NCBI GenBank assembly: GCA_905181865.1
Contig: CAJIZG010000001.1
Span: 434,001-498,000, forward strand
DNA length: 64,000 nucleotides
Source: Urechidicola croceus
Lineage (GTDB): Bacteria; Bacteroidota; Bacteroidia; Flavobacteriales; Flavobacteriaceae
Direction: 5' to 3'
In this document: positions 19,876 through 61,817 of the stretch, in pieces
How the letters are laid out: each line of letters starts with the position of its first letter
Numbering within the stretch: the stretch's first letter is position 1
Made by a program: the position numbers and the translations under genes
The notes under the pieces: generated by a model
Database searches by the model: none
Seen by the model: only the letters and a program-made list of their open reading frames with translations
Told to the model about the DNA's origin: nothing

Positions 19876-20088
19876 ATGGGAAGACCACCTACGAGACCGG
19901 CCAAATTAAGAGACGGATTTTACATTGAGGTTAGAAATAAAGGCGCAAAAAGCGGAATTAAAATTAGAAGAGACAACAAATCTGATATGATGGAGGCTGT
20001 AGATGAGTATCGCCTTGTCAAAGAAATAATGATCTTAGGCGAATCTAAGAATGATAAATGGGTAGAGAAACCAAAACAAGCATTTTAG
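19876..20088 (+). CDS. Small conserved flavobacterial protein
   Basis: 70 residues, basic, soluble: MGRPPTRPAKLRDGFYIEVR, then KSGIKIRRDNKSDMMEAVDEY. The regular pattern of charged strands and the GRPPTRPAKL start, reminiscent of AT-hook-like RP motifs, suggest a possible nucleic-acid contact, but this is only inference. No family recognised. It ends 36 bases after a conserved-looking GESKNDKWVEKP tail. Confidence 0.6.
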   Translation: MGRPPTRPAKLRDGFYIEVRNKGAKSGIKIRRDNKSDMMEAVDEYRLVKEIMILGESKNDKWVEKPKQAF

Positions 20089-20179
20089 ATAATATTCAAC
20101 GGCTTTTAAATTGTATTAAACGTATATACTGCAATTTTTAAAACTAAAAAATACTTTAAAAGAGGAATTACTTTTAATA

Positions 20180-20850
20180 ATTTCTCTTTTATGTATCATA
20201 CATCCTTCTTTTTTTGCCACTATTGCTGAGGTACAAAATATCATACAAGCTATCGAGTAATACTATAGGCGACCCATATAAATAAAGCCTAAATCGCTTT
20301 AGATCCGTGACATTTATTGATTGCCAAAATACTATCAGAAGCAATAAAAAATAAAGACATAAATAACAATGTTACGGTGCCTTTTGATGTACTATTAAAA
20401 TAATTTATAAGAGAAATTGTTCTAAACAAGTAAATTACAATGGCATAGATTGTAACTCGAATCATTAAACTTTATAAGGTATCTTTTAAAAAATACAAAA
20501 GTCCAAAAGAAATAATGGTAAAAGAAATAATGGTAAAAGGAATAATTGATAGAATTTTAATCCGTAAACTACTTTTTTTCAATACCCTAAACACTAGAAA
20601 GATATATAAAATAGAGTTATCAAGAAAGATGCTAAACCGACTATAAAATTATTTTCACTTTCAAAAATTAAGATGATATTGCCAATTAAGGAAAAAACTA
20701 CGGCTCCTATATACCAAGGTAAATTATTTTTAAGCCTGCGTATAACTCAATAAAGAAGCGAGTAAGAAAGGCTTTGTATAAACTGACAACACTTTAAATT
20801 CAGAGCACGCACCAAAATATGCGCTATTGAAATTGCGATAAAAATAATTT
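20180..20850 (-). pseudogene. Decayed YhhN-family membrane protein gene
   Basis: Minus-strand conceptual translation gives, in order and broken by stops and frame changes, VLSVYTKPFLLASLLSY, then GAVVFSLIGNIILIFESENN, then FIVGLASFLITLFYISF, and near 20340 LLFMSLFFIASDSILAINK. These match the conserved blocks of the YhhN/TMEM86 (lysoplasmalogenase-like) family: the KP loop, the FSLxGD-like block and the late SDSxLAIN motif. No full open frame survives. This accounts for most of the 780-base stretch between the 70-residue gene and ligA. Confidence 0.72.
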
Positions 20851-20868
20851 AGATTTCTATCCCACAAC

Positions 20869-22881
<2,013 letters not shown>

Positions 22882-22891
22882 TTAGCTCCTA

Positions 22892-22899
22892 CAAAAATA
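22892..22899 (-). promoter_or_regulatory. -7 box of ligA
   Basis: TATTTTTG on the minus strand, 19 bases from the ligA ATG; no clear -33 box. Confidence 0.5.
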
Positions 22900-23391
22900 A
22901 AAAATATAATGTACATTACGATGCACTTACTGCCATTATAACGGTCCTTTTGATAAAAATTTGGTGGCACACCACTTCTTAAACCACTATTAAATAGTTG
23001 TCTTAATGGATATTACTATAATTTCAATGAGTACTAACTCCATTTTCTTATTAGACATTGAGTCTGTTCCTGTTTTAAGAATTAAAATACGTAGCTTGTT
23101 TCATCATTGCTACATACAAACACCTGCTTTTATTTATACTTTAATAGCTTATTATTGTTACTCATAAAAATATTATGGGACTGCATGGTTAAAGATTAAG
23201 TAATTTTACAACGCAATTAAATTGCTGAAAAAGGTAAAAAGATAAAGGTATTTGAAGTTATTGGCTAGTAATAGCCTAGCGATGAATCTATTGGATATCA
23301 CGCCAAGAGATTACTTTTGATTGCCTTATAAGAAAGGCGTTCTTTTTTCTTTTTAAATAGTAACGCGTGTAGCATTATACCTTTGATATTA
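22900..23391. other. Geneless stretch, nothing firmly identified
   Basis: Rich in stop codons in all frames. A short plus-strand frame near 23027 would read MSTNSIFLLDIESVPVLRIK, weakly like the N-terminus of a DnaQ-type exonuclease, but it does not continue. A small hairpin (GGCTAGTAATAGCC) is near 23263. Probably decayed sequence. Confidence 0.4.
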
Positions 23392-23964
23392 TCATTGCTT
23401 CTTTATTGTACCCGTCATAAAATTAACCCCAACTGGTAGCGGGTTTCCAGCAGCACGTCTCATGGCTACAATTTGTCCTGCATGCCATACAGCGTCTTCG
23501 ATAGGGCCATTGATAGCATTCCAAAAAGGAAACTCTTTGGAGCCAAAGAGTATATTGAATTCGTTTAAGTTTGTTGCTTTTTGAAGGATACTACTCGCCT
23601 TTTCCATATTTACAAGCGCCTCTTTTCTCTTGTCTCTATAAGTCAACTCTGTAAGATCTCTATCGCCTCCATTTTGTTTTTTTAATGCTGCATTCACTAG
23701 GACTCTGGAGAGCCCTAAAATATGATCGATCGTTTGCTCAATAGTTCTGCCTTCTTCACTTAGTTTATAAACTAAATCTTCCGTTTTTAAATCTTCTGTT
23801 GCCCAACGAAATCGAAAACCTAAGCCGTCTACCATTCTCGCTGCAACAGTTCCTGCGGTATATTCACTATACTCTGTTGGAATCTGATAATATGGAAGTA
23901 CTTCCGTGTTTTGTGACATTGCCGTAAGGTTTGTTATAAGTACTAAAGATAAAAATAATTTCAT
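23392..23964 (-). CDS. Exported DinB-like protein
   Basis: 190 residues from the ATG at 23964. A signal peptide (MKLFLSLVLITNLTAMSQ) is followed by a DinB-type helical bundle: TIEQTIDHILGLSRVLVNAA and a late EDAVWHAGQIVAMRRAAG, whose His residues would be metal ligands. DinB-fold proteins are often metal-dependent thiol transferases, but this one has no assigned substrate. The frame is open a further 13 codons upstream (MHHVTELKNTYRH), but those codons come from the 89-bp repeat described separately; the signal peptide shows that the start is the ATG supplied by the end of the first repeat unit. Confidence 0.8.
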   Translation of the reverse strand: MKLFLSLVLITNLTAMSQNTEVLPYYQIPTEYSEYTAGTVAARMVDGLGFRFRWATEDLKTEDLVYKLSEEGRTIEQTIDHILGLSRVLVNAALKKQNGGDRDLTELTYRDKRKEALVNMEKASSILQKATNLNEFNILFGSKEFPFWNAINGPIEDAVWHAGQIVAMRRAAGNPLPVGVNFMTGTIKKQ

Positions 23965-24500
23965 ATGCCTATATGTATTTTTTAATTCGGTCACATGGTG
24001 CATCCATAATAGCCATTTCTTTGGATATCGCCTTTTAGTTATGGATGGTTCATATGCCTATATGTATTTTTTAATTCGGTCACATGGTGCATCCATAATA
24101 GCCATTTCTTTGGATAGCGCCTTTTAGTTATGGATGGTTCATATGCCTATATGTATTTTTTAATTCGGTCACATGGTGCATCCATAATAGCCATTTCTTT
24201 GGATAGCGCCTTTTAGTTATGGATGGTTCATATGCCTATATGTATTTTTTAATTCGGTCACATGGTGCATCCATAATAGCCATTTCTTTGGATAGCGCCT
24301 TTTAGTTATGGATGGTTCATATGCCTATATGTATTTTTTAATTCGGTCACATGGTGCATCCATAATAGCCATTTCTTTGGATAGCGCCTTTTAGTTATGG
24401 ATGGTTCATATGCCTATATGTATTTTTTAATTCGGTCACATGGTGCATCCATAATAGCCATTTCTTTGGATAGCGCCTTTTAGTTATGGATGGTTCATAT
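23962..24500 (-). repeat. Tandem array A: six 89-bp units ending on the DinB-like gene's start codon
   Basis: Six contiguous units of exactly 89 bp begin at 23962, 24051, 24140, 24229, 24318 and 24407; a 5-base stub follows at 24496. They are identical as far as I can see except for one base in the first unit (ATATCG in place of ATAGCG). In the direction of the downstream gene each unit starts ATGAACCATCCATAA (Met-Asn-His-Pro-stop), passes through TGACCGAATTAAAAAATACA and ends just before the next ATG; the last such ATG is the start of the DinB-like gene. There are no spacers, so this is not a CRISPR. I see no TAnnTTTG box inside the unit. The same unit recurs in opposite orientation at 31722-32354. 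Confidence 0.95.
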
Positions 24501-24622
24501 TCTGTATTTTATATATACCCATCATCATAGAACGTAGGATTTTAATGTGCACTCCATTTTGCTACCTATACGTACCAAAGAATTCGATGTAACATCGGTA
24601 ACGAATGGATAGAAAGCAACAA

Positions 24623-24650
24623 TAAGACCGATGTAATTACATCGGTCTTA
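24623..24650. terminator. 28-base perfect palindrome after degQ, probable terminator
   Basis: A 14-bp perfect inverted repeat, TAAGACCGATGTAA then its complement, 25 bases after the degQ stop codon. It can form a stem of 12 bp with a 4-base loop. The T run after it on the minus strand is weak (ATTGTTGCTTT). A partial second copy, CGATGTAACATCG, lies at 24585-24597. Confidence 0.65.
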
Positions 24651-24675
24651 GCACTATTTAATTCCAAAAAAAAAA

Positions 24676-26079
24676 TTAATTAAATATATAACGTTCCGTA
24701 ACACCCTTATCTGTAAGTACTTCTAATGCTATTCTTCCTTCTGTAGCCGCCTTTCGCATCGCTTTATCTGCATCGTCAATGTCATTAATTTCTACGCCAT
24801 TAATTCTTCTAATTACCTGACCTTCTTTTAAACCCAGTTCTGCCAATCTATCGTTTGTTATTCTTTCAATTTTTACCCCTTGACTCAAATCAAATTCTTT
24901 GGCCTCGGATTTGTTCAATGCTTTTAGATTCAATCCAAGTTGACTTAAGGCCGTTCTTTCGTTTTTATAAAGTTTTACCTCTATTATACTTTCAGACCCT
25001 TCTCTAATAATCGTGAAATCAACAATATCTTCGGGTCTTTTGGTCTTTAAAAAACCGCTTAAATCTGCAAATGTTGCTATTTCTACATTATCTGCTTTGA
25101 TGATAATATCGTTAGGCTTAATTCCAGCTGTCCAAGCACCACTTTCTTCCAATACATTAGTAATGATTACGCCTTCGGTATTTTCTACTTGAAATTCCTT
25201 GTTATTTTCCCCATTCAATTCCTTATAATTGATTCCAATAAAAGCTTTTTGCACATTGCCAAACTCCATAATGTCTTCAATCACCTTTTTGGCAATATTC
25301 GAAGGAACCGCAAATGAATATCCAATATACGATCCCGTATTTGAGGTGATCATGGTATTAATTCCAATTAATTCACCCCGTGTATTCACCAAGGCTCCGC
25401 CACTGTTTCCAGAGTTCACAACGGCATCGGTTTGAATGTAAGAATCTGTTTGTCCGCTGCCTAGTAAATCTCTTCCCTTAGCGCTTATAATACCAGCGGT
25501 TACTGTTGCAGATAAATTATAAGGGTTTCCTACTGCCAATACCCATTCCCCCACTTCTACATGATCTGAATCTCCAAATACAACATACGGCAAATCAGTA
25601 GCACCCACTTTAATCAAAGCAATATCATTCGATACGTCTGTTCCTATTAGTTCTGCTGTATACGATTTCTTATCATTTAATGTAATTTCAATTTCGGAAG
25701 CACCTTCAATTACATGATTATTCGTAATAATATACCCATCTGAAGAAACAATAACACCACTACCTATGCCTATTTGGACTCTTTCTTTACCGCTTCTTCT
25801 TCCATAGAGAAACGCCTCCATTGCATTGCTACTTTTATAGCTCGATTTATTTTTTACATGTACTACCGCACTTAGCGTTTGCTTTGCAGCTTCTCTAAAA
25901 TCTACCGGAGCGACACTAAAACTAGCAGGCGTAGTAAAATTTGTAGAAACGGATGCTACATTTAATTGTGGAGTTTCTTCTACAACCAATGCTGTTTCTT
26001 CCAAAAAAGTTGTATACACCATCAATGAAAACAAGCCACCTAAGGCTGCAACCAATACTAAACCAACAACTTTTTTCAT
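24676..26079 (-). CDS. Do/DegQ-type periplasmic serine protease
   Basis: HtrA-family protease of 467 residues that degrades or refolds damaged envelope proteins. An N-terminal signal or anchor segment (VVGLVLVAALGGLFSLMVYT) is followed by a trypsin-like domain with His in IITNNHVIEGA, Asp in SNDIALIKV and Ser in VVNSGNSGGALVN. Two PDZ domains follow (about 275-370 and 375-467), the second short as usual in Bacteroidota. I chose the ATG at 26079 (MKKVVG); an ATG 6 bases upstream adds Met-His. Its leader is homologous to that of mltG. Confidence 0.92.
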   Translation of the reverse strand: MKKVVGLVLVAALGGLFSLMVYTTFLEETALVVEETPQLNVASVSTNFTTPASFSVAPVDFREAAKQTLSAVVHVKNKSSYKSSNAMEAFLYGRRSGKERVQIGIGSGVIVSSDGYIITNNHVIEGASEIEITLNDKKSYTAELIGTDVSNDIALIKVGATDLPYVVFGDSDHVEVGEWVLAVGNPYNLSATVTAGIISAKGRDLLGSGQTDSYIQTDAVVNSGNSGGALVNTRGELIGINTMITSNTGSYIGYSFAVPSNIAKKVIEDIMEFGNVQKAFIGINYKELNGENNKEFQVENTEGVIITNVLEESGAWTAGIKPNDIIIKADNVEIATFADLSGFLKTKRPEDIVDFTIIREGSESIIEVKLYKNERTALSQLGLNLKALNKSEAKEFDLSQGVKIERITNDRLAELGLKEGQVIRRINGVEINDIDDADKAMRKAATEGRIALEVLTDKGVTERYIFN

Positions 26080-26150
26080 ATGCATCTATTTTTTGTTTTT
26101 AAACGATCATACTTCGACTACGCTCAGCACAGGCACTGCAGTTCGCTATG
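26080..26150 (-). repeat. Leader repeat shared by degQ and mltG (degQ copy)
   Basis: The 27 bases at 26107-26133 (minus strand, core GCTGAGCGTAGTCGAAGTAT) are identical to 33752-33778 upstream of mltG, and similarity continues on both sides: ATAGCGAAC upstream and an A-rich run up to the ATG downstream. The CTTCGACTACGCTCAG core is a sequence seen repeatedly in Bacteroidota genomes. Between here and the ompA terminator (26151-26349) I see nothing else. Confidence 0.8.
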
Positions 26151-26350
26151 CAGCATTCTTAAAGTGATTATACATATTGCATGCTCGTTCATAAGTATAA
26201 AATATTTATAGTAACAACACTCAAAATTATGCATTTATTACGTAATTCGAAAACTGATTAACGCTATTTTAACAAAACATAATGTTAATACTTACAGGAT
26301 ACTCATTACGCAACACACCACGAAAAAAAATAAGGAAATATAAGGCACAA

Positions 26351-26381
26351 AAAAAACCATCAATTAAATTGATGGTTTTTC
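26351..26381 (-). terminator. Intrinsic terminator of the OmpA-family gene
   Basis: A 13-bp stem (AAAAACCATCAAT / ATTGATGGTTTTT) with a 3-base loop, followed on the minus strand by further T residues, 33 bases after the stop codon. Confidence 0.9.
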
Positions 26382-26413
26382 AACATTTATCTAAGTTAGT
26401 CTCTAAAGACTAA

Positions 26414-27940
26414 TTATTTTGCAGTAATAACAAGAACTCTTCTGTTATTCTTTCTACCTTCACGTGTAGTATTGTCAAATTCTGGACTTAATTCACCTCT
26501 TCCTTCAGAAACTAATCTATCAGAAGATACATTTCCAGTAGAAGTAAGATACATTAAAACAGCATTTGCTCTTTGTTCAGATAACACTTGATTTCTAGAA
26601 ACACTTCCAGTATTGTCGGTATGACCTTCAATAAGGAAAGCTGCTTTCGGATAATCATTCATGATAACTGCAATTTCATTCAACTTCGCTGCAATTCCAT
26701 CTTGGAACGTTGCTTTACCTGTTTGAAATAAAATCTCTTTCGCATACGCGTCAATCAATTCTGCAGCACCCGCATCAATTGCTGGACAACCATCATTATC
26801 TAACAGCCCAGGAACATCAATACACTTATCATCTTTATCTAAAACACCATCGCCATCTGTATCTGGCCAAGGGCATCCATTATTTTCTGCAGGTCCGTCA
26901 ATACCAGGACATAAATCATCTTCATCAAGATCTAACACGCCGTCTCCGTCATAATCAGGACATCCCCAAGTTTCACTTGAACCAGCAGTATAAGGACAAC
27001 GATCTATAGTATCAGCAACACCGTCACCGTCTGTATCGATTATTTCCTCTTCTGGACAACCATTTAAGGCTTCAACACCTGCATGCTCCGGACAAGCATC
27101 ATACTTATCTGCAACACCATCACCATCACGATCTCTTGCTTTTCCAAAGTTAAAACCTAGACTAATTGAAGGTTGTACAAAGAATGAAGCATTAGAATTA
27201 TCAGACTCTAAAACTGGTAAACCAGGCCCAGGTAATTGACTCTTGAAAGCATAATTAAATGCCATAGGAACAATTCTTGCGCCCACAAATATTTCATCAG
27301 TAAAGTAATAATCTACTCCAGCTACTGCCTGAATACCTATAGAATTCACTTCAGCATGTCCAGTACCCAAGTTTACAATATCAACATTACCCTGCCAATC
27401 CAACACTGTAGGGTTATACGTAGATCTTCTTGCGTAGTTATATGGTACAGCAACACCTATATAAGGAAATAATTTCCTACTATTTGTTTTGAACAAATAT
27501 TGTGTTCCTACCGTTACATTCACAGACATGGATTCATTAGCAATCACTGCTCCATACGCTGGTAAATTACCAGCGGCAGGAATTGCTAACTGCGAAGGTG
27601 TATTACTCAAAATAGTACCTCCAGATAGGGTTAATGCCCATCTATTGCCTATATAGTAACCTAATTCAATACCAACCATATTACCCGAATCATTATGATT
27701 ACCTTCAACTAACGCACTAGGCGGCTCGTGATTAACCATACCTCCACTTCCTACGGCGGCATTATAGGGCACAGCTAAATAAGCTCCCCTTCCAAAAAGT
27801 AATTCCATCGTGAAATCCCCTTTTTTCGGCCCATATGGGTTAGCATCAGAACCTTCACTTTGGTTTGTATCTTGTCCGTACACACTTACTAGTGAAAGAG
27901 ATACGAAGAAAATAAAACTTAAAATTATATTTTTTTTCAT
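26414..27940 (-). CDS. OmpA-family outer-membrane protein with thrombospondin type 3 repeats
   Basis: 508 residues. Signal peptide (MKKNIILSFIFFVSLSLVSV), an N-terminal beta-barrel-like region (about 35-270), four Asp-rich calcium-binding thrombospondin type 3 repeats (DRDGDGVADKYDACP, DTDGDGVADTIDRCP and two more, about 275-385), then a C-terminal OmpA domain (about 395-508) with the peptidoglycan-binding signature EGHTDNTGSVSRNQVLSEQR. It likely ties the outer membrane to the cell wall. Downstream of the Ala-rich lipoprotein gene, upstream of degQ, all on the same strand but separated by hairpins. Confidence 0.9.
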   Translation of the reverse strand: MKKNIILSFIFFVSLSLVSVYGQDTNQSEGSDANPYGPKKGDFTMELLFGRGAYLAVPYNAAVGSGGMVNHEPPSALVEGNHNDSGNMVGIELGYYIGNRWALTLSGGTILSNTPSQLAIPAAGNLPAYGAVIANESMSVNVTVGTQYLFKTNSRKLFPYIGVAVPYNYARRSTYNPTVLDWQGNVDIVNLGTGHAEVNSIGIQAVAGVDYYFTDEIFVGARIVPMAFNYAFKSQLPGPGLPVLESDNSNASFFVQPSISLGFNFGKARDRDGDGVADKYDACPEHAGVEALNGCPEEEIIDTDGDGVADTIDRCPYTAGSSETWGCPDYDGDGVLDLDEDDLCPGIDGPAENNGCPWPDTDGDGVLDKDDKCIDVPGLLDNDGCPAIDAGAAELIDAYAKEILFQTGKATFQDGIAAKLNEIAVIMNDYPKAAFLIEGHTDNTGSVSRNQVLSEQRANAVLMYLTSTGNVSSDRLVSEGRGELSPEFDNTTREGRKNNRRVLVITAK

Positions 27941-27975
27941 TTTGTTTGGTTCTTTAAGGTTTAAAATTTGTTTTT

Positions 27976-28013
27976 AAAAGAACTTGGAAACAAAAGTTGT
28001 TTCCAAGCTCTTT
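27976..28013 (-). terminator. Hairpin terminator after the Ala-rich lipoprotein gene
   Basis: An 11-bp stem (CTTGGAAACAA / TTGTTTCCAAG, 27983-28007) with a 3-base loop, flanked by AAAGAA and CTCTTTT, 27 bases after the stop. On the minus strand it is followed by TTCTTTT. Confidence 0.75.
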
Positions 28014-28034
28014 TATATTTTCTTAAAGAATCAC

Positions 28035-28913
28035 TTATGATTGTAAAGCAGCTTGCATTAGTGCTAAATAAACAGCAGCTTGTGCAAGAGCATTTTCAAT
28101 TTGTTGAGACAACATCGCTGACTTTTCTACATAAAACGCATGTAGTGCATCGTTAGCCTGTCCGGTAGCATGAGCAGCCTCTAAAGCATCCTCAGCTGTA
28201 CCCAAAGCAACTATAGTACCTGTAGTACCTGAGATATGATCCACATAATATGTTTGCGCTTTACTAGCAAGACCCTCTAAATTATCGAACTGTACGAAAT
28301 TCCCATTAATGTCATTAGCGCCTAGATAACCCAACACATATTCTATGTGATCTATCTGATTCTCCACAACATACATTTGATTTATCTTTAATTGAGCATC
28401 ATGCATTAATCGATTGTATTGAGCTTGTAAATCTGCATCCAAATTAACACCTCTATAAGTTACCATGATTTCGTCATATTCTAAGGTCATCTCAGCAAGG
28501 ATTTCTAATGCAACATCTAATTTTGGTTGGATTAGGGTAATCGCATGTTGAGCAGCATCGATAGCCAATTGAAGACAAACTACGTCACAATTTTCAAGAT
28601 TTGTTACATTAGTCCCCGCAGTCACTACAGCAGCCTCAGCATTTAGTTTTGCCAATAAAGCATTATAATGATCTCCCATCAATGTGCTTGAAGTAGGTAA
28701 TGTACCTGCCACAGTTGGTGCCGTAATGTCTGCACCTAAGTCAGTCCAAGCGATATCAACTAATCCCTTCTCCGTTCCAACAGCACTATCTGCACTATTC
28801 TTTTCGATCAATGCAGCAGCTATCATAGCGATACCATCGTCAAACAAATCTTTTTGATAATCAAAAGCAGTTTGTGCGGCTGCTAAGATCGAAGCGATGT
28901 TATCAACTTGCAT
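28035..28913 (-). CDS. Ala-rich lipoprotein, C-terminal segment (third reading frame)
   Basis: Third part of what looks like a single 3-kb gene (28035-31054). It is 292 codons from the ATG at 28913, although the frame is open from 28931. Composition (Ala-rich, with heptad-like helices such as VCLQLAIDAAQHAITLIQPK and IENALAQAAVYLALMQAAL) matches the other two parts, so this is the C-terminal coiled-coil arm. It is entered from the preceding frame by a +1 shift at AGT-TGA-T (28903-28910); the ATG overlaps that TGA, so re-initiation could also produce it as a separate polypeptide. No known domain. Confidence 0.7.
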   Translation of the reverse strand: MQVDNIASILAAAQTAFDYQKDLFDDGIAMIAAALIEKNSADSAVGTEKGLVDIAWTDLGADITAPTVAGTLPTSSTLMGDHYNALLAKLNAEAAVVTAGTNVTNLENCDVVCLQLAIDAAQHAITLIQPKLDVALEILAEMTLEYDEIMVTYRGVNLDADLQAQYNRLMHDAQLKINQMYVVENQIDHIEYVLGYLGANDINGNFVQFDNLEGLASKAQTYYVDHISGTTGTIVALGTAEDALEAAHATGQANDALHAFYVEKSAMLSQQIENALAQAAVYLALMQAALQS

Positions 28914-29535
28914 AATTAGCTTGAGCCTCTGCTAATTGCATATTCCAAACTTTTGCATAAGCAGTGAGAGTATTAGACCCACCCATAACACCAGTACCAT
29001 CCCAAGTAGATAAATAACCAGCGTCAGCAGTGCCAGGGGCAAGTACAGTAGACCAATTAGCGCCAGTTGCAGCAGCTCCATTAATAGTCAAAGGCATATC
29101 AGTGAAGTCATTAAGACCTAATGCATTTGTAGCCTTGTTAAATTCCGCTAAGTTACTCGTACTTGTATCATCTGCTTCAATCTCTATAAAATAAACAGTA
29201 TTAAGATTCCAATTAGATCCTCCACCCTCATTGAACTCTGTTGAAATCGCATCCTGTGCTTCACCAGCCGATAAAAAATTAACCCCAGCTGGTAAGCCGT
29301 GTCCTTGTGCAGCACCAATCCCATTTTGACTAGCACCCGACTGATTCAATATAACCACATCATCATCATCATGTATATTATTAAAACCAGCGGTACCCAC
29401 ATTAGAGGCATCACTTGCTATAAGTTCATTTTTATAAACCTGAAAATCAGCTGAACCGTACTTTGTAGGGAACAAAGTTGCAGGAATATATTGATTAGAA
29501 CCTAAGGTAGTTTCTTTCCAAGTATCAACTCGCAT
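28903..29535 (-). CDS. Ala-rich lipoprotein, middle segment (second reading frame)
   Basis: Middle part of the split gene. The first ATG is at 29535 but the frame is open and clearly coding up to 29769 (QVDQGQDAALVTAQTNTTDA and on), so translation most likely enters from the upstream frame. Unlike the flanking parts it is rich in Asn, Gly, Asp and Thr (residues resembling HDDDDVVILNQSGASQNG), and so is probably a globular insertion between two helical arms. It ends at TGA 28903-28905, where a +1 shift continues into the next segment. No domain recognised. Confidence 0.65.
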   Translation of the reverse strand: MRVDTWKETTLGSNQYIPATLFPTKYGSADFQVYKNELIASDASNVGTAGFNNIHDDDDVVILNQSGASQNGIGAAQGHGLPAGVNFLSAGEAQDAISTEFNEGGGSNWNLNTVYFIEIEADDTSTSNLAEFNKATNALGLNDFTDMPLTINGAAATGANWSTVLAPGTADAGYLSTWDGTGVMGGSNTLTAYAKVWNMQLAEAQANYAS

Positions 29536-29752
29536 ATAAGTTGCAGAAGAACCGTCACCATGAATTCCAATCTCATCTAGATCGTCAAAATTATTGTTGG
29601 TATCGAATGCAGCATCTTCCGTTTGATTACCATTTTCATCACCTACGTAAATACCTTTAGCAGCTTCATAAGCGTCATCTGCAGTTCCTAAAGCAGTTTC
29701 AGCATCAGTTGTATTCGTCTGAGCAGTTACTAAAGCAGCATCTTGTCCTTGA

Positions 29753-31054
29753 TCAACCTGTGCAGCAGTCTAAAGCAGCAGCAGCAGCATTGTAAGTTGC
29801 TACTAGATTTCCATGGTTAGTTACTAATAAACCATGAGCAGCAGTTTTAACTGCAGCATCAATTTTAGCATTAACCAATACTTGTTGTAAATTTGCTGGA
29901 TTAGCATATTTTACGCCAACTGCATCAATTGCACCCCCGTTAGAATCAACAGTGTAGTAATCTGGAAAAGTAATACCTATAACTCCTAATGCTAATTGAG
30001 CAGTACTAACAGCAGTTGAGGCAGTAGTAATGTCTAAACCAGACTGTAAAACCGCCGCATTTGCATCTGTCACCAGACCTTGTAAAACTAATAGTGCACC
30101 AGCATAGTTAGTAATAGCCGCTCCGTTATTCGTAATAATAGTTAACTCAGCAGTAATATCTCCATTCCACGTTATTGTATCATTTTGATGATCTTCATAA
30201 ATCTGTACAAAATCTTTTCTAGCTTCATCAATACCATCTTGTCCGTCAATTAATTCGTCTGCTTCAGAGTATAAAGTTTCTGCTTCTATTTCAAGTGAGA
30301 TAGCAAGCGCTTCCGCTGTATCCATTTTATCTTGCCATTCACTCACCTGTGCGGCTATTGACGTCGGATCCTCTATTACTGCCAATAAAGCAGCATAAGC
30401 CGCTTGCGCGGATGCAATTTCACTAGTAGCTGCAGCAACATTCATTTCCAATTGAGTCATTGCATAGTCCTCATACAAACTATTTATCATTAGTGATAAT
30501 TCGTTCATAAGATTATCATTAGTTTGTTTAGTACCCATCAAAGTTAAAACATTACTCATGAGTCCATCATAACTAGATGCGTGCTCCGCAGCTATTATCG
30601 CACCTGCTTCGTTCAAATCATCCATCAATCCTAAAAGTTCAGCCTGGAATAATGCTTGTTGCCTAGCCAATTGATCTTCAATGGAATCAACAGCAGTTGC
30701 TGTTTGCGCAACTAGCAACAGCAATTCTTGCTCTTGCTCTTTAACCCACCATGCAGTTTCAGCAATTAAGTCTGCTGTTTCTGCATCAATATTGTCTGCA
30801 TTTGCACTTATCAACTCTGCATTTGCAAGTGACAAAGCAGCTTTGGCCTGTTCGGCTGCTGCCTGAGCTACTAACAATGTAGCCTGCGCATTTTGAACTC
30901 CTGCACTTGCAGCAAGCAGTGCTGCTTGATTCTGATAGATCGCAGCGACCGCCGGATCTATATCTTCATCTATACAAGACACTAATCCTGTACTAGACAT
31001 AATTACTGCTAAGAACAGTAATGCTAAAGTTTTCATTTTTTTCATTTTTTTCAT
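29753..31054 (-). CDS. Ala-rich lipoprotein, N-terminal segment (first reading frame)
   Basis: 433 codons. A lipoprotein signal (KTLALLFLAVIMSSTGLVSC, Cys near residue 27) is followed by IDEDIDP, an acidic stretch right after the lipidated Cys of the type linked to surface display in flavobacteria. Then come long Ala-rich helices (AALLAASAGVQNAQATLLVA and similar), probably coiled coil. The frame ends at TGA 29753-29755 in GGT-TGA-T; a +1 shift there enters the next segment. With both shifts the product would be about 1005 residues. Three start codons nine bases apart (ATGAAAAAA twice, then ATGAAAACT) begin it. Ala-rich surface protein of unknown role. Confidence 0.75.
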   Translation of the reverse strand: MKKMKKMKTLALLFLAVIMSSTGLVSCIDEDIDPAVAAIYQNQAALLAASAGVQNAQATLLVAQAAAEQAKAALSLANAELISANADNIDAETADLIAETAWWVKEQEQELLLLVAQTATAVDSIEDQLARQQALFQAELLGLMDDLNEAGAIIAAEHASSYDGLMSNVLTLMGTKQTNDNLMNELSLMINSLYEDYAMTQLEMNVAAATSEIASAQAAYAALLAVIEDPTSIAAQVSEWQDKMDTAEALAISLEIEAETLYSEADELIDGQDGIDEARKDFVQIYEDHQNDTITWNGDITAELTIITNNGAAITNYAGALLVLQGLVTDANAAVLQSGLDITTASTAVSTAQLALGVIGITFPDYYTVDSNGGAIDAVGVKYANPANLQQVLVNAKIDAAVKTAAHGLLVTNHGNLVATYNAAAAALDCCTG

Positions 31055-31107
31055 TTTTTGGAATTAATAAAGTATTTAAAGTTTAAATTATAAATAAAAC
31101 GTTCCGA

Positions 31108-31145
31108 CAAACTTACAATATAATTCTTATTTCGCAAGAATTATA
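31108..31145 (-). promoter_or_regulatory. Promoter of the Ala-rich lipoprotein gene with overlapping dyad
   Basis: Minus strand: TTG (31135-31137), 19 bases, TAAGTTTG (31108-31115), about 53 bases before the first ATG. A perfect 10-bp inverted repeat (TATAATTCTT / AAGAATTATA, 31119-31128 and 31136-31145, 7-base spacer) covers the -33 box, a natural place for a repressor or activator. The rest of 31146-31475 holds nothing I recognise. Confidence 0.7.
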
Positions 31146-31475
31146 TTAAATTTATTACAATATACGAGTAATTTGTGGTTTTACTGTAAATCTTACAGCA
31201 CTTAACCTACTGATTGTGTAATTGTTATTGCCTTTTTATTTGCTGCGCCCTAGCACGGTAATTAGCGTTAAAATTTAATATATATGATTTATATATACCC
31301 CTGTTGATACCTTATAGGTCAGATAATGTTCAGCGCTAACGCGTTGTAACCTCTATTATTTATGTAATCGTTGTATTTATGCCGATATGCGGATATATAA
31401 ACATATTTTCCTTTTACGCTAATCCGAAAAATGCACTAAAATAGGTAGACCTCTATATAGGACTGCATTTTTGAA

Positions 31476-31763
31476 ATGATTATCTATTTGATCGTATACT
31501 GCTTTATCTTATACGATACGTGCGCAGGATGCAATGGCTATCACTACTTCTACAAAAATAAAACAACTCAAATACAGGCTGCGCATTCAAGTACCCCTCA
31601 AAACGAGAGTAAGGCAAGCCATTCTGACCTTTTATACGCTAAGGATTCTAATCGTGAAACTCTAGAACTTTTGAAAAATTTTACACCAAGGTATTCCAAC
31701 GAATACTGTATCTTTGCAACCATGAGCCATCTATTACTCAAATTTTATTATACTAGAAAATGA
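31476..31763 (+). CDS. Doubtful 95-codon ORF running into array B
   Basis: A hydrophobic start (MIIYLIVYCFILYDTCAGC) is followed by a polar region, ending in the codons for MSHLLLKFYYTRK that belong to the first repeat unit of array B. It may be an orphan small exported protein, or chance open frame; a promoter-like TATCTTTG inside it (31709-31716) argues for the second. Confidence 0.2.
   Translation: MIIYLIVYCFILYDTCAGCNGYHYFYKNKTTQIQAAHSSTPQNESKASHSDLLYAKDSNRETLELLKNFTPRYSNEYCIFATMSHLLLKFYYTRK
31709..31716 (+). promoter_or_regulatory. -7 box directly before array B
   Basis: TATCTTTG, 5 bases before the first ATG of the array (31722). No -33 TTG at the right distance. If used, the dapF message would carry the whole array (about 630 nt) as its leader. 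Confidence 0.45.
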
Positions 31764-32354
31764 CCATTATGGATGCACCATGTGACCGAATTAAAAAATA
31801 TATATAGACACATGAACCATCCATTACTAAAAGGCGCTATCCAAAGAAATGGCTATTATGGATGCACCATGTGACCGAATTAAAAAATACATATAGGCAT
31901 ATGAACCATCCATAACTAAAAGGCGCTATCCAAAGAAATGGCTATTATGGATGCACCATGTGACCGAATTAAAAAATACATATAGGCATATGAACCATCC
32001 ATAACGAAAAGGCGCTATCCAAAGAAATGGCTATTATGGATGCACCATGTGACCGAATTAAAAAATACATATAGGCATATGAACCATCCATAACTAAAAT
32101 TTTAATTATACTAGAAAATGACCATTATGGATGCACCATGTGACCGAATTAAAAAATATATATAGACACATGAACCATCCATTACTAAAATTTTAATTAT
32201 ACTAGAAAATGACCATTATGGATGCACCATGTGACCGAATTAAAAAATATATATAGACACATGAACCATCCATTACTAAAATTTTAATTATACCAAAAAA
32301 TGACCATTATGGATGCACCATGTGACCGAATTAAAAAATATATATAGACACATG
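31722..32354 (+). repeat. Tandem array B: seven 89-91 bp units ending on the dapF start codon
   Basis: ATG-anchored units begin at 31722 (90 bp, divergent, MSHLLLKFYYTRK-stop), 31812, 31901 and 31990 (89 bp, the array A body with GGCGCTATCCAAAGAAATGG), then 32079, 32170 and 32261 (91 bp, a second body type with TTTTAATTATACTAGAAAAT). The ATG after the last unit, at 32352, is the dapF start. All share CACCATGTGACCGAATTAAA before the ATG. The orientation is opposite to array A. The first unit is most diverged and probably closest to the ancestral sequence; the array mixes two unit types, so units have been exchanged. Confidence 0.95.
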
Positions 32355-33131
32355 ACTCTACACTTTTACAAATACCAGGGAACAGGGAATGATTTTGTGA
32401 TGCTAGACAATCGCACTGGAACATTTCCAAAAGAAGACACTACTTTAGTGAACAAACTTTGCGATAGAAGGTTTGGCATTGGCGCAGATGGCTTAATACT
32501 ACTAGAAAAAAGCGATACGGTAGACTTTACGATGGTGTACTATAATGCCGACGGAAATGAAAGTAGCATGTGCGGCAATGGTGGTAGATGCCTGGTTGCA
32601 TTTGCCAAACAATTGAAGGTTATTAAACACAAGGCTACCTTTACTGCGATAGATGGTCTGCACCATGCCACTATTAAAGATGGCGTTGTTAGTCTGCAAA
32701 TGATTGATGTAACGCGTATTGAATCGTATAAGTCGCATACGTTTTTAAATACAGGATCTCCACATCATATTGAATTTGTAGCAAATGTTGATGCTATTGA
32801 TATACAAAAGAGTGGTAAAGAGATACGATATGGCGCTCCTTATTATGATGAAGGCACGAATGTTAATTTTGTGGAAGTTATAGATTCTAGTACACTTAAG
32901 GTCCGTACATATGAAAGAGGTGTTGAAGACGAAACATTGAGTTGTGGTACCGGAGTAACTGCTGCTGCCATCGCGGCATACTTTGAAGGGAAAACAACGC
33001 TACCAAACACGCGCATCTTAGCGCAAGGTGGTGCCTTGTCTGTTAGTTTTGATGAAAAAAATAAGGGTTTCTATACGGTTGTTTTAACAGGGCCTGCAAC
33101 ATTTGTATTTGAAGGTACTTTTAAAATATGA
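32352..33131 (+). CDS. dapF: Diaminopimelate epimerase
   Basis: Converts LL- to meso-diaminopimelate for lysine and peptidoglycan. The two catalytic Cys are in MCGNGGRCL (near residue 75) and LSCGTGVTA (near 200), each in one of the two mirror-image domains. The start is the ATG at 32352 (MTLHFYKYQGTGNDF), 259 residues; the frame is open 13 codons further upstream but those are repeat sequence (MHHVTELKNIYRH). It overlaps the following acetyltransferase gene by 4 bases (ATGA). Confidence 0.95.
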   Translation: MTLHFYKYQGTGNDFVMLDNRTGTFPKEDTTLVNKLCDRRFGIGADGLILLEKSDTVDFTMVYYNADGNESSMCGNGGRCLVAFAKQLKVIKHKATFTAIDGLHHATIKDGVVSLQMIDVTRIESYKSHTFLNTGSPHHIEFVANVDAIDIQKSGKEIRYGAPYYDEGTNVNFVEVIDSSTLKVRTYERGVEDETLSCGTGVTAAAIAAYFEGKTTLPNTRILAQGGALSVSFDEKNKGFYTVVLTGPATFVFEGTFKI

Positions 33132-33730
33132 AAACACTGCAAGGCAAACATATCCGTTTAAGAGCTATCGAACTCACCGATCTTGATTTTCTGTACCAAA
33201 TTGAAAATGACGAATCGTTTTGGTCTATAAGCAATACACAAAAACCATTTTCTAAATTTTTATTACAGCAATATCTAGAAAATAGCCATTTAGATATTTA
33301 CGAGGCAAAGCAACTTAGATTGATTATTTTTCAAAACAAAACGAATACTCCGGTGGGAATGATCGACTTATTTGATTTTGAACCAAAGCATAAAAGAGCA
33401 GGTCTAGGACTGTTAATTCATCCTACTTTTGAAAATAGGGGCTATGCTACTGAAGCGATTCAGCTTATAACGGCCTATGCTTTTACACATCTCGACATGC
33501 ATCAAATTTTTGCAAATATTACGACAGACAACAAAAAAAGCATTGCCCTTTTTAAAAAATTGAATTTCCAACGAGCGGGAGAGAAAAAAGATTGGATTTA
33601 TGCAAATGGTACGTACAAAAATGAAGTTTTATACCAATTGATTCATGAAACGAGCATGCTAAATCTTTATCCCCTAAGAGAAATCGAAGATTCAACGCCT
33701 CCTTTAAAAACAATAAACAAGGAGAGTTAA
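33128..33730 (+). CDS. GNAT-family N-acetyltransferase, RimJ/RimL type
   Basis: 200-residue acetyltransferase resembling those acting on protein N-termini: IRLRAIELTDLDFLYQIEND at the start, the acetyl-CoA loop in RAGLGLLIHPTFENRGYATE (about 97-117), and DNKKSIALFKKLNFQRAGEK near 140. The substrate is unknown. Coupled to dapF by ATGA overlap and 77 bases before mltG. Confidence 0.85.
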   Translation: MKTLQGKHIRLRAIELTDLDFLYQIENDESFWSISNTQKPFSKFLLQQYLENSHLDIYEAKQLRLIIFQNKTNTPVGMIDLFDFEPKHKRAGLGLLIHPTFENRGYATEAIQLITAYAFTHLDMHQIFANITTDNKKSIALFKKLNFQRAGEKKDWIYANGTYKNEVLYQLIHETSMLNLYPLREIEDSTPPLKTINKES

Positions 33731-33737
33731 TGATTGA

Positions 33738-33807
33738 TAGCGAACCGCATTCCTGTGCTGAGCGTAGTCGAAGTATGACCGAATTAAAAATCGATAAATA
33801 AAAATAC
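33738..33807 (+). repeat. Leader repeat shared by degQ and mltG (mltG copy)
   Basis: 33752-33778 is identical to the copy upstream of degQ. Immediately after it, TGACCGAATTAAAAA (33776-33790) is identical to the core of the 89-91 bp array unit, so this leader joins the two repeat types. Like them it ends at a start codon (mltG, 33808). Confidence 0.8.
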
Positions 33808-34845
33808 ATGAAAAATAAAAAACGTACGCTTCGTTTTATGCTTATTGCCTGTATACTATGCATTGCTGCCATTGGATTTAATCTCTACAGCAAAATATAT
33901 TCATCGAATGTAACGCAAGATTCCGAAATCTTTATTGCTTCTAATTCAGATTTTGACGCGGTAGTTATAGCGCTCCATTCAATCATTGCCAATAAAAATT
34001 CATTTATATGGGTTGCTACAAAGAAAAAGTACCCAAATTTGATCAAGGCTGGAAAGTACTTGCTAAAAAAAGGAATGAACAACAATGACTTGGTTAACTT
34101 ACTGCGAAGCGGAAATCAAACCGCCGTTACACTTTCTTTTAACAACCAAGACTCATTAGAAAAACTTGCTGGCAGAATCGCTACTCAAATAGAACCTGAC
34201 TCCGTAACTATATTAAAAGCGCTCACCAATCAAAATTTCTTAAAGAACAACAATTTTACGTTACAATCTGCCCTTAGTATGTATATTCCAAATAGCTACC
34301 AAGTCTATTGGAATACACCTGCTGAAAACTTTAGAGATAGAATGCTTACAGAATATACTAAATTTTGGTCTTCGGATAAAAGAAAAAAAGCCGCGTACCA
34401 AAACTTAACACCCAAAGAAGTTAGCGTACTTGCCTCTATTGTGCAAAAAGAGACACAAACCATTGCAGAAAGACCAAAAGTTGCTAGACTCTACCTTAAT
34501 AGACTAAGAAATAACTGGCCCCTTCAGGCAGATCCTACAATAATTTATGCTATTAAAGAGAAAAATGGGCAAGATTTTGTTGTAAAAAGAGTACTGTACG
34601 CAGACCTTACGATACGCTCTACATATAATACGTACCGAAACAAAGGGCTGCCTCCTGGTCCAATTGGTATGCCAGATATTTCGGCGATCAATGCCGTCTT
34701 ACATCCAGACAACCATCAATTCTTTTACATGTGCGCCGACACTCAAAATTTTGGACAGCACGTTTTTGCGAAATCCTTACGCCAGCATAATAGAAACGCC
34801 GCTGTTTATCAAAAATGGTTGTCAAACCAAGGAATCAGAAGGTAG
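33808..34845 (+). CDS. mltG: Endolytic peptidoglycan transglycosylase MltG
   Basis: Inner-membrane lytic transglycosylase that cuts nascent glycan strands. 345 residues: one N-terminal membrane segment (FMLIACILCIAAIGFNLYSK), then a LysM-like region and the YceG catalytic domain with ASIVQKETQ (catalytic Glu is the one before Thr; Gln replaces the first Glu, seen in related flavobacteria), NRLRNNWPLQADPTIIYA and YNTYRNKGLPPGPI. Third gene of the dapF group. Next gene on this strand has its own promoter. Confidence 0.95.
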   Translation: MKNKKRTLRFMLIACILCIAAIGFNLYSKIYSSNVTQDSEIFIASNSDFDAVVIALHSIIANKNSFIWVATKKKYPNLIKAGKYLLKKGMNNNDLVNLLRSGNQTAVTLSFNNQDSLEKLAGRIATQIEPDSVTILKALTNQNFLKNNNFTLQSALSMYIPNSYQVYWNTPAENFRDRMLTEYTKFWSSDKRKKAAYQNLTPKEVSVLASIVQKETQTIAERPKVARLYLNRLRNNWPLQADPTIIYAIKEKNGQDFVVKRVLYADLTIRSTYNTYRNKGLPPGPIGMPDISAINAVLHPDNHQFFYMCADTQNFGQHVFAKSLRQHNRNAAVYQKWLSNQGIRR

Positions 34846-35187
34846 GTAATGTGCTTATTTATAGTGTTTTGATACTTATAACGGTGCAACTCTCCATGTA
34901 CATGAAGAACCTCGCCATGGGCCCTTTTGTCAATTCAGAAACTTCCATACGATTACTTCGGGTATCTTTACACCAATACGTTATCCTTACAACGATGTAT
35001 ACATGTAAAATACAGTATAGATTATAGTTGGTTTTTTACAGCATTATAAGGGTGGGGTTCCGTTTATTTATGCGAGAGCATAAAATAAATAAGTACAATG
35101 AAACGTTCTAAGAACCAACATATAATAATTACAAGGCCATTTTTATAAACAAGTTGATCTAACGAATAAAAAATAAATCATAAAACC
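34846..35187. other. Geneless stretch between mltG and the lysozyme-like gene
   Basis: No convincing gene; only short frames of unlikely composition. A small hairpin (TTTATGC-GAGA-GCATAAA) is at about 35067-35084. No mltG terminator stands out. Confidence 0.5.
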
Positions 35188-35217
35188 TTGCTAAATTAAA
35201 ATAAATCAGTATTTTTG
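35188..35217 (+). promoter_or_regulatory. Promoter of the lysozyme-like gene
   Basis: TTG (35188-35190), 19 bases, TATTTTTG (35210-35217), 28 bases before the ATG. Consensus boxes and spacing. Confidence 0.8.
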
Positions 35218-35245
35218 CACCGCGAAATATTAAACGGTTCTTTGT

Positions 35246-35896: not shown

Positions 35897-35915
35897 CGCA
35901 AATTACATACGTACT

Positions 35916-35952
35916 AAAAAAAAAACGCAACATAGAATGTTGCGTTTTTTTT
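35916..35952. terminator. Bidirectional terminator
   Basis: A 15-bp stem of A7-CGCAACAT and its complement with a 3-base loop. The A and T runs on both sides serve the lysozyme-like gene (plus) and the rsmI-like gene (minus), which ends at 35951. Confidence 0.9.
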
Positions 35953-59383: not shown

Positions 59384-60469
59384 TTAAGAATTTAAAAGTT
59401 TAACGATTTCTGAATGCATTTTTTCGCCGACATTGTTTCCGTATAAATCTATTGAAAAATCTGCCGTGCTATTTTGAAAGTCTTCAAAGGCGTCCATCAT
59501 ATCTTTTGAATTACTGCCTACTATTCTCGCAAATCCATTGTCTAACAACTCAACCCATTCTGTTTCTTCACGAGCAATAATGCAATTCTTTTTATTAAAA
59601 AACGCCTCTTTTTGCAACCCTCCACTATCGGTAATCACCAAATTACAATTCTTCAACAATTCAAGCATATCAAAATATCCAATAGGATCTATAAATTTCA
59701 AATTATACGTCAACGCATTATCAATCAAAATTTTCTTCGTTCGCGGATGCAACGGCAATACGACTTGTTTTGTTTTAGAAATACGCTCTAAACCTTCAAA
59801 AACGGCCTTTAACTTAGTAATATCCTCTGTGTTTTCCTGACGGTGAATGGTCGCTAATACAAATTCATTTGAAACCAAATTTAAATCTGAAATTATTGAT
59901 GATTTCTCCTCAGATGTATGACTGTAATACACAACAGCATCTTTCATAATATCACCACAATTTACTACTAGATTGGACAGCTCATCAAATCCTTCATTCT
60001 TCAAATTATCGATTGAAGAAGATGTAGGGCACAATAGCAAATCTGATATTCTATCTGTTAATATCCTATTTACTTCCTCTGGCATTTTCATATTAAAAGA
60101 ACGCAATCCAGCTTCTATATGAATAACTTTGATGTGTAATTTTTTCGCAGTTAAAGCACCTGCGATCGTAGAATTGGTATCTCCATAAATTACGACTGCT
60201 TCTGGCTTTTCAATTAAAAGAATTTCCTCAATTTTCTCCATCATCTGTCCGGTCATAGCGCCATGACCGAGTCCGTTTACTTTTAAATTATACTTTGGGT
60301 TCGGGATTTGCATTTCTTCAAAAAAGACGGCACTCATATTTGAATCGTAGTGCTGACCTGTATGTACAATAATTTCTTCCAAATCTTGATGGTTTGAAAT
60401 TACTCTACTCAATACAGCGGCTTTTACAAACTGTGGTCTCGCACCCAAAATGGTAACTATTTTTTTCAT
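59384..60469 (-). CDS. wecB: UDP-N-acetylglucosamine 2-epimerase (non-hydrolysing)
   Basis: Interconverts UDP-GlcNAc and UDP-ManNAc for surface glycans. 361 residues: ILGARPQFVKAAVLSR at the start, VHTGQHYD, YGDTNSTIAGALTAKKL, HIEAGLRSFN near residue 115 and ITDSGGLQKEAFFNKK near 278. Full length. The preceding gene's stop is 85 bases away with A/T-rich sequence between. Confidence 0.93.
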   Translation of the reverse strand: MKKIVTILGARPQFVKAAVLSRVISNHQDLEEIIVHTGQHYDSNMSAVFFEEMQIPNPKYNLKVNGLGHGAMTGQMMEKIEEILLIEKPEAVVIYGDTNSTIAGALTAKKLHIKVIHIEAGLRSFNMKMPEEVNRILTDRISDLLLCPTSSSIDNLKNEGFDELSNLVVNCGDIMKDAVVYYSHTSEEKSSIISDLNLVSNEFVLATIHRQENTEDITKLKAVFEGLERISKTKQVVLPLHPRTKKILIDNALTYNLKFIDPIGYFDMLELLKNCNLVITDSGGLQKEAFFNKKNCIIAREETEWVELLDNGFARIVGSNSKDMMDAFEDFQNSTADFSIDLYGNNVGEKMHSEIVKLLNS

Positions 60470-60554
60470 GTATTAATTCTATTGTTTTTTAGCGATCACA
60501 TGCAGTCGCTATCATTCATTCCCGCAAGTGATACCAATTTTAACATGCTCGTTT

Positions 60555-61817
60555 TTATGAAACGCTCTTAATAATTTGACTCATTCTTTCTGTTAAACTT
60601 CTTCTATGATATTGTTCTATTTGGTGAGAATCTACATATAATTTACCCTCCTTATATAATTTATAATACTCTAAAATAGTAGCTTTCATCGAAACTTTAT
60701 CTTTAAAATCAATAATAACTCCAGAATTCGTCTGCTTAATAATTTCTGATAAATCGCCATCTACAGGGCCAATGGCAAAAATAGGTCGTTTCGCAATTAA
60801 ATACTCAAATATTTTACCTGTAATAATTCCTTTGGCACTCGGTACATCATTAATAGCCAAAATTAAAACTTGAGACGACTGTTGATACTCTTGAACCTTG
60901 TTATGCGAAACATAATCTATCTTTTTAAGATTTGATGCTAATTTATTCATATGAATATCATTCAGACATTTTTCGGAAACGCGTCCTATTAATTTTATTT
61001 GCAAATCAGTAGAAAAATTTTTTACTTCTTTCGATAATTCTCGTAAACTTTCCCAAAGTATTAAAGGGTTTCGATCGTCGTTCATCAAACCAATATGTGT
61101 CATGGTAAACTTTAAATCTAACTTTTTATTCTCGGTCAAAATATCAGAATCAAAACCATTCGTAACCACATGAATATTTGAATTCAAGGCCAAATAATTC
61201 TGTTTCATAGTTTCTCCAACGACAATGACAGCGTCAGATGTTTTCAAAACTTCTCTTTCCAAGTCTTGATGTTTTTTTTGTGATTTAGCACGCAACGGCA
61301 ACTGATGAAAATAATCAATGTCCGTCCAAGGATCTCTAAAATCCGAAATCCATTTAATTCCTGTTTGTTGCTTTAATTGATTCGCAATAAGGTGCAAACT
61401 ATGAGGAGGTCCTGTAGAAATAACAATATCTATATCGCTCGAATTCAAATATTTTGTTAAAAACTTAACGGATGGCTTTATCCAAAATTTTCGAGCGTCA
61501 GGAATAAAATAATTGGCTCGAATGTACTGCAATACTTTACCCATCAAACTAGGTTTCGAACTTAAAAAACCAGCACTCGTATTTTTATTTTTACCTCGTA
61601 TATTATTTGGTTCCCATATGGGTTCACGTAAAACTTCTACTCCTTCAGGAATATCTTTTAATAAACTTTTATCCATAATTGGATAATTAGGATTCTTAAC
61701 AGTATAAATAACAGGCTCTATACCAAAATCTCTAAAATATTTCACGAACTTCAACCAGCGTTGAACACCACTCCCACCTGCAGGTGGCCAATAATATGTG
61801 AGAATTAAAACTTTCAC
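60555..61817 (-). CDS. Family 4 glycosyltransferase
   Basis: GT-B fold glycosyltransferase of 420 residues. N-terminus KVLILTYYWPPAGGSGVQRW is characteristic of Bacteroidota surface-polysaccharide GT4 enzymes. DFRDPWTD near residue 178, and a C-terminal nucleotide-sugar domain with GKIFEYLIAKRPIFAIGPVD near 355. Donor and acceptor unknown. It overlaps the following gene's start by 4 bases, so they are in one operon. Confidence 0.88.
   Translation of the reverse strand: MKVLILTYYWPPAGGSGVQRWLKFVKYFRDFGIEPVIYTVKNPNYPIMDKSLLKDIPEGVEVLREPIWEPNNIRGKNKNTSAGFLSSKPSLMGKVLQYIRANYFIPDARKFWIKPSVKFLTKYLNSSDIDIVISTGPPHSLHLIANQLKQQTGIKWISDFRDPWTDIDYFHQLPLRAKSQKKHQDLEREVLKTSDAVIVVGETMKQNYLALNSNIHVVTNGFDSDILTENKKLDLKFTMTHIGLMNDDRNPLILWESLRELSKEVKNFSTDLQIKLIGRVSEKCLNDIHMNKLASNLKKIDYVSHNKVQEYQQSSQVLILAINDVPSAKGIITGKIFEYLIAKRPIFAIGPVDGDLSEIIKQTNSGVIIDFKDKVSMKATILEYYKLYKEGKLYVDSHQIEQYHRRSLTERMSQIIKSVS

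Follow-up and report, generated by a model that had tools for sequence, protein, structure and literature searches.

The window, by which we mean the whole 64,000-nucleotide stretch of the Urechidicola croceus genome that was analysed, contains two tandem arrays of a short repeat as well as single copies of it. Array A lies on the minus strand (23965..24498) and, as assembled, consists of six gapless 89-bp units that begin, reading downwards, at 24498, 24409, 24320, 24231, 24142 and 24053. Five of the units are identical and the gene-proximal one carries a single substitution; Tandem Repeats Finder scored the array at 1075 with 99% matches, far beyond chance. A preliminary description of this locus had reported six near-identical, gapless 89-bp units ending on a gene's ATG, and both unit reading and Tandem Repeats Finder bore this out, except that the array stops at 24498, two bases short of the end given there (24500). 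Reading of the units also confirmed that every one opens with ATG-Asn-His-Pro-stop and that six decoy ATGs lie upstream of the true start.

That start is the ATG at the right edge of the array (23962..23964, minus strand), with which a signal-peptide-like N-terminus, judged by eye, agrees; an alternative in-frame ATG at 24003, within the last unit, would lengthen the protein by 13 residues. The gene behind the array has 190 codons (23392..23964, minus strand). It had been called DinB-like, and DinB is indeed the top Pfam match of its product, but at E = 0.05, under that family's cut-off, so the similarity is weak; no Pfam family matched at 0.001. On the other side, a terminator-like hairpin (24623..24650, minus strand) lies between the upstream gene and the array, and the roughly 120 bp from hairpin to array contain neither a TAnnTTTG box nor a clear promoter.

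Array B (31722..32351, plus strand) comprises seven elements of 89-91 bp, and its right edge is the start codon of dapF (32352..33131, plus strand), whose closest named relative is that of Bacteroidetes bacterium MedPE-SWsnd-G1, followed by Lutibacter. Five bases ahead of the array stands TATCTTTG (31709..31716, plus strand), a TAnnTTTG box that comparison with congeners marks as the native dapF promoter box. The array is a mosaic: units 1, 6 and 7 belong to one type, units 3 and 4 to that of array A, and the hybrid units 2 and 5 change type within the common stretch CATCCATWACTAAAA. One array-B unit is identical to an array-A unit. To judge from the sequences, arrays A and B have exchanged sequence, since hybrid and mosaic units in B are the expected remnant of recombination. 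The earlier suggestion that the units are being homogenised agrees with the array-A-type tract flanked by hybrid units in array B, and an exchange between the arrays would have homogenised both.

Three single elements complete the set discussed here. The first (26074..26192, minus strand) contains a nested short repeat and precedes a serine protease gene starting at 26079; the second (33645..33813, plus strand) contains two nested repeats, and a YceG-family gene begins at its right ATG (33808); the third (60464..60557, minus strand) precedes a UDP-N-acetylglucosamine 2-epimerase gene starting at 60469. The last codons of the gene at 33128-33730 are encoded by the second element, and its insertion therefore altered the end of one protein and gave the next gene its start. 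Several elements (33645-33813 and loci L009, L020, L022 and L195) share, at one and the same position, a second nested repeat of some 50 bp, which also stops exactly before ATG. In several copies (26074-26192, 33645-33813, L017 and L224), the element's CATG is the site of a nested third short repeat, CCTGTGCTGAGCGNAGTCGAAG.

A dispersed, oriented repeat family

Searching the genome and its relatives with the unit, as the preliminary description had proposed, gave matches at many places in both. With a 151-base piece of the array, the own genome yielded 30 matches at E <= 0.001, tandem units included, and 49 at E <= 10. We then used two covariance models by subtype, R1 built from 17 rows and R2 from 13, which at E <= 0.01 matched the own genome at least 53 and at least 81 times, respectively, in overlapping sets; 150 candidates were scored per genome, or 21 under stricter filters, and copy numbers are lower bounds. 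For reading, 60 own-genome stretches were taken, of which L026-L028 were dropped as lacking a full element, and R2 matches at E of about 2e-5 to 0.01 were included in part. The 73 places read group into 61 chains, each made up of one or more elements, with a tandem run counted as one chain. Most family members measure 82-98 bp, and some carry nested inserts.

A frame of at least 60 codons opens from the right-edge, that is the last, ATG in 50 of the 61 chains. Five of the other 11 were judged by eye to be starts as well (interrupted frames at L010, L015 and L018, ATA for ATG at L014, and a 47-codon frame at L190), and six lie away from any gene start (L196, L199, L021, L222, L187 and L214). 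At L014 (C5:397994 of the own genome), a long open frame follows the ATA that stands in place of ATG. The genes behind the element, among them dnaN, asnS, cysS, hisS and dapF, are mutually unrelated. Similarly, ten downstream protein fragments had as their top NCBIfam matches DnaN, AsnS, CysS, HisS, DapB, guanylate kinase, ferrochelatase, GlpK, PII and LpxB, which share no common pathway. One subtype (L012, L017, L018, L019, L020 and L186) has a frame of about 23 codons, MKHPxIKxYxPxE..., running from the left ATG, a possible small peptide or a leftover.

At the level of sequence, these copies show that the unit of array A is one copy of a dispersed, apparently non-coding, oriented repeat family. 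The idea of a tandemly copied leader that includes the start codon thus held in part: the repeats do carry the start codon, but the unit is a copy of a dispersed mobile family rather than a one-off leader. Because the unit belongs to such a family, the tandem arrays look secondary. That the assembly itself produced the repeat is an explanation to which we give practically no weight. Perfect tandem repeats are prone to copy-number error, but dozens of sites carry the element, which also recurs in several independent genomes and genera, and a collapsed artefact, the refutation envisaged in the preliminary description, is unworkable as an account of the unit.

Insertion at ATG and evidence for movement

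The edges of the element follow a simple rule. On the left, ATG is followed by the element's own AAAC, also where the second codon of the gene is not AAA; on the right, the element ends as a rule in CAC, followed by the ATG that serves as start codon and then by native sequence. The left triplet is still ATG in 45 of 61 chains, and the 16 others are ATA (6), ACG (2), GTG (2) and ATT, TTG, AAG, AGG, TAA and CTA (1 each), 14 of them one change away from ATG. The simplest reading is that insertion occurs at an ATG and leaves an ATG on each side, the left one being the old start, which would then decay. The two ATGs fit a duplicated target as well as an ATG carried by the element. What had been described as a leader including the start codon would accordingly be, in the part that concerns the start codon, correctly seen, but it is an insertion between the native leader and the coding sequence, with ATG at each edge.

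The second codon points to a longer target. It is AAA in 48 of 54 start-type chains compared with 8 of 36 element-free ATG starts in the window, so ATGAAA appears to be the preferred target. No further target bases were seen by eye upstream of the ATG. Outside element DNA, ATGAAA marks 12 starts in the window (4 of which have acquired an element) and is found at 6 non-coding positions that are no starts and at 87 coding positions; the corresponding numbers for ATG are 41 starts (5 with an element), 210 and 1924. If insertions in coding sequence were purged, 57-67% of the survivors would be expected at starts for ATGAAA, a figure with a small base, and about 15% for ATG alone; 55 of 61 were seen. 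We consider ATG alone an unlikely target: element-free non-coding ATGs in the window are starts in 36 of 246 cases (41 of 395 when element DNA is left in the count), against the 55 of 61 chains.

We also rejected recognition of start codons as such. One copy (L179), in genome G019 from another family, lies at GATGAAATT within an open DapE/ArgE-family frame that reads through it. In addition, ATGAAA sites that start no gene are occupied by several copies in G019 and by one in G097. The rule therefore concerns sequence, with survival favouring start codons, and some extra preference for starts beyond the sequence target is possible. In other genomes, 52 of 66 places have an open frame of at least 60 codons from the right ATG; among the remaining 14 are two that continue into the following unit and one with a GTG start, leaving about 11 with no clear gene start. 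Together with the six own-genome chains away from gene starts, these places indicate that start codons are favoured but not required.

Orthologous sites provide the evidence for movement. At dapF, among 14 congeneric genomes, three sites are filled (the own array, G005 and G012) and seven are empty, with four (G001, G003, G006 and G011) left out of the reading. G012 and G004 have near-identical upstream sequence up to the ATG, after which G004 continues into the gene and G012 has AAACGAGCATG... and ...AACAC, then ATG and the gene. The filled copies in G005 and G012 were read by eye, and both are shortened; G012 scores E = 0.05 with the model, which does not list G005. Similarly, of 11 genomes compared at dnaN, two are filled (own and G001) and eight empty, G009 being left out of the reading, and the native dnaN leader extends up to the ATG in both states. 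No element was found at asnS in the 5 relatives examined of 12. Congeners thus differ in whether the element is present at dapF and dnaN, and so the element moves.

This movement looks recent in G097 and G019, where copies at different loci are 97-98% identical (four compared) and, in one pair, 97% identical (eight compared), respectively. The closest pair among 30 single copies of the own genome is 92% identical, and most copies there are therefore older. Both subtypes stand before the same gene (similar N-terminus, MKIIIAGAGDVGFHLAKLL) at L176 in G001, L178 in G008 and L143 in G007, which suggests repeated insertion at one site in three congeners. A simpler origin of the arrays would be plain tandem duplication of one leader, by slippage or unequal crossing-over, into a phase-variable repeat. 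It accounts well for the identical units of array A and the hybrid units of array B, that is for the arrays alone; dispersed single copies at unrelated genes and the empty and filled sites are left unexplained, and as a full explanation it is very improbable.

Within the order, R2 at E <= 1e-4 under the stricter filters matched at least 10 of 196 genomes and at least 7 of 73 genera, the own genome and the second family counted in. Both models matched 6 of 8 congeners searched at E <= 0.01; G003 and G006 gave no match at this threshold, with 150 candidates scored per genome. By these searches, the family is patchy within the order. Across the 1.51 Mb covered by 80 dapF neighbourhoods from other genera, neither model had a match at E <= 0.01, a result that doubles as a chance control. 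Phages, plasmids and viral contigs contained no match to two exact patterns, nor did phages and plasmids to one composed type-2 query each, and Rfam models gave no match at E <= 1 in window positions 20000-36000. No description of the element turned up in the open-licence literature searched, outside which most subscription journals lie.

Hairpins around the start codon

The TAnnTTTG box is absent from the first element of all 61 chains, and it occurs in 13 of 61 upstream flanks of 90 bases compared with 3.4 expected from mononucleotide shuffles. Several copies lie after the stop codon of the preceding gene. Since the copies read carry no such box, the element is likely to be a leader, not a promoter, and once inserted it would join the 5' leader.

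Two hairpins can be drawn within this leader. In H1, the arms of type 1 are CATCCAT and ATGGATG, those of G019 TCCCCAT and ATGGGGA. H2 pairs an internal CATGTG with the terminal CACATG, placing the start codon inside it; CATCTG with CAGATG and CATATG with CATATG are also seen. Double changes numbered 17 against 4.6 expected in the own genome (alignment A3), 20 against 2.6 in other genomes (A5) and 18 against 3.1 in type 1 for H1 and H2 (A6), and in each case none of 500 shuffles reached as high a count. A3 and A5 were fitted to a model, A6 is a plain MAFFT alignment with pairs named by hand, and the shuffles ignore relatedness. Across thirds of rising body divergence, 92-93% (A3) and 97-99% (A5) of H2 cells remained paired. 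Covariation in these alignments shows that H1 and H2 are kept. Type 2 in the own genus appears to have H2 alone: RNAalifold finds no H1, and the composed type-2 consensus, again with no H1, folds no better than shuffles (z = -0.50). Wobble counts fit folded RNA and folded DNA alike.

When single units were folded with CACATG or CATATG in front, it was the left edge that paired with the internal CATGTG in four of five cases, and the two edges may thus compete for one guide. For the start AUG, the predicted accessibility is modestly below that of 35 element-free window genes (0.36 versus 0.48, p = 0.04). In mRNA, H2 would probably lower or condition initiation.

These features raise the alternative that the copies form a regulon of conserved cis-acting leader RNAs, of the riboswitch, thermometer or protein-binding type, rather than a mobile repeat. 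Orientation and position before starts, the covarying hairpins and the retention of H2 in divergent copies would all follow from it, and a similar element stands at trpE in G002 and G007. We nevertheless find it improbable, given that orthologous sites are empty or filled within one genus, the functions of the downstream genes are unrelated, copies occur off gene starts and inside a coding frame, and the edges fall at ATG. A regulatory side-effect of a mobile element is possible.

The explanation that we favour, and consider probable as a whole, is a mobile, ATG-edged repeat with hairpins that uses start codons as a safe harbour and is moved in trans. The copies lie with native upstream sequence on one side and, in most cases, coding sequence on the other, bordered by ATG at both ends. 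Start codons would offer a safe harbour because the ATG and second codon remain intact after insertion there, in contrast to most other places, where a gene would be broken. The element would move as a folded single strand, of DNA or RNA, in which the internal CAT can pair with the ATG of either edge, and a putative enzyme acting in trans would mobilise it. Arrays may form when further copies insert at the new ATG, or through unequal recombination. We put forward more tentatively that it represents a new mobile class, in which a folded single strand reads both edge ATGs with an internal CAT, takes ATGAAA starts as safe harbours and has placed a conserved start-codon hairpin on dozens of genes, essential ones too: a selfish repeat turned transplantable translation leader in bacteria that lack Shine-Dalgarno sequences.

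Candidate mobilisers and known systems

We examined three enzymes as mobilisers, and the presence of none tracks the element. No match to a Y1 transposase was found in carriers G001, G002, G004, G005, G019 and G105, drafts among which may miss genes; Y1 proteins are present in G097 and G155, which hold close element copies. Of 33 Y1 loci, four had a model match at E <= 0.5, and in the two examined the element is not the transposase's own end: L303 has a truncated Y1 frame near the element, and L299 has a RAYT-like gene between different repeats, with the element 0.7 kb off. Reverse transcriptases exceeded the cut-off in 6 of 18 genomes, the own genome having matches below it only, and none exceeded it in carriers G001, G002, G004, G005, G008, G012, G019, G035 and G105. 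Integron integrase exceeded the cut-off in 0 of 18 genomes. Insertion sequences can be missing from draft assemblies, and an enzyme may be lost while its old copies persist. The negative results are therefore most telling for G019, which is 99% complete and contains the 97% identical copy pair, and carry less weight for G002 and G105.

These results bear on the idea of a REP-like or IS200/IS605-like repeat, moved in trans by a Y1 (HUH) transposase that recognises ATG through the internal CAT. The hairpin, the guide-like pairing to both edges and the Y1 proteins of G097 and G155 speak for it. The six carriers with no Y1 match, for which a lost transposase would explain old copies only, and the 33 Y1 loci, which adjoin no element resembling their own ends, speak against it. 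In REP elements with RAYT transposases and in IS200/IS605 ends, as presented in the accessible part of PMC6006769, the guide sits at the 5' foot of the hairpin, whereas CATGTG lies 3' of H1. We therefore regard Y1-driven movement of this kind as unlikely.

For the mobile, ATG-edged repeat that we favour, resemblances to known systems are partial. With REP/RAYT and IS200/IS605 ends, as far as the accessible parts of PMC6006769 and PMC3733652 describe them, it shares short, dispersed, imperfect intergenic hairpins, a non-autonomous character and pairing of guide and edge; it differs by its greater length (about 90 bp), its ATG edges, the one-orientation bias to start codons, the guide 3' of the hairpin and the lack of a Y1 match in the six carriers. 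TAACTGA direct repeats, according to the accessible part of PMC4679880, lie just before the starts of unrelated genes, in some Bacteroidetes too, and a translational role was suggested. The element likewise lies near the starts of unrelated genes, but the TAACTGA repeats, as described in that part, are seven bases long, with no ATG in the unit, no hairpin and no insertion rule. In Flavobacterium johnsoniae, according to the accessible part of PMC6847099, additional AUGs are avoided close to starts and the start region has little structure; in contrast to this pattern, each insertion adds an upstream AUG and a possible pairing partner for the start codon.

Filled and empty sites are thus natural variants for studying start-codon choice in the absence of Shine-Dalgarno sequences, and the element's mobiliser would offer a starting point for finding an ATG-specific insertion chemistry. 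Among other repeats, MITEs are short, non-coding and present in many copies, with a direct repeat at the edges and terminal inverted repeats. The element is short, non-coding and present in many copies too, with a direct repeat (ATG) at both edges, but its left end AAAC(GAGC/ATCC) and right end GACAC are, by eye, not inverted repeats. Palindromic repeats insert in frame in genes, as in Rickettsia, and copy L179 is similarly read through within an open reading frame; the usual site of the element, unlike theirs, is the start codon, where it supplies a leader and not protein. Integron attC sites act as a folded strand with two stem blocks and a three-base junction and occur in arrays. The element also has two stem blocks, a three-base junction and arrays, but its junction is ATG, it has no cassette genes, and no integrase exceeded the cut-off in the 18 genomes.

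Overall, the element appears to work like a small repeat mobilised in trans, yet, when compared with REP, MITE, integron and retroelement systems, it lacks features tested for each. Mobile elements usually harm or avoid genes. With an edge rule of ATG in and ATG out, this one can enter dnaN and several aminoacyl-tRNA synthetase genes, essential ones included, without breaking them. What sets it apart is this combination of an edge rule by which the start codon stays functional and a conserved pairing able to hold that codon.
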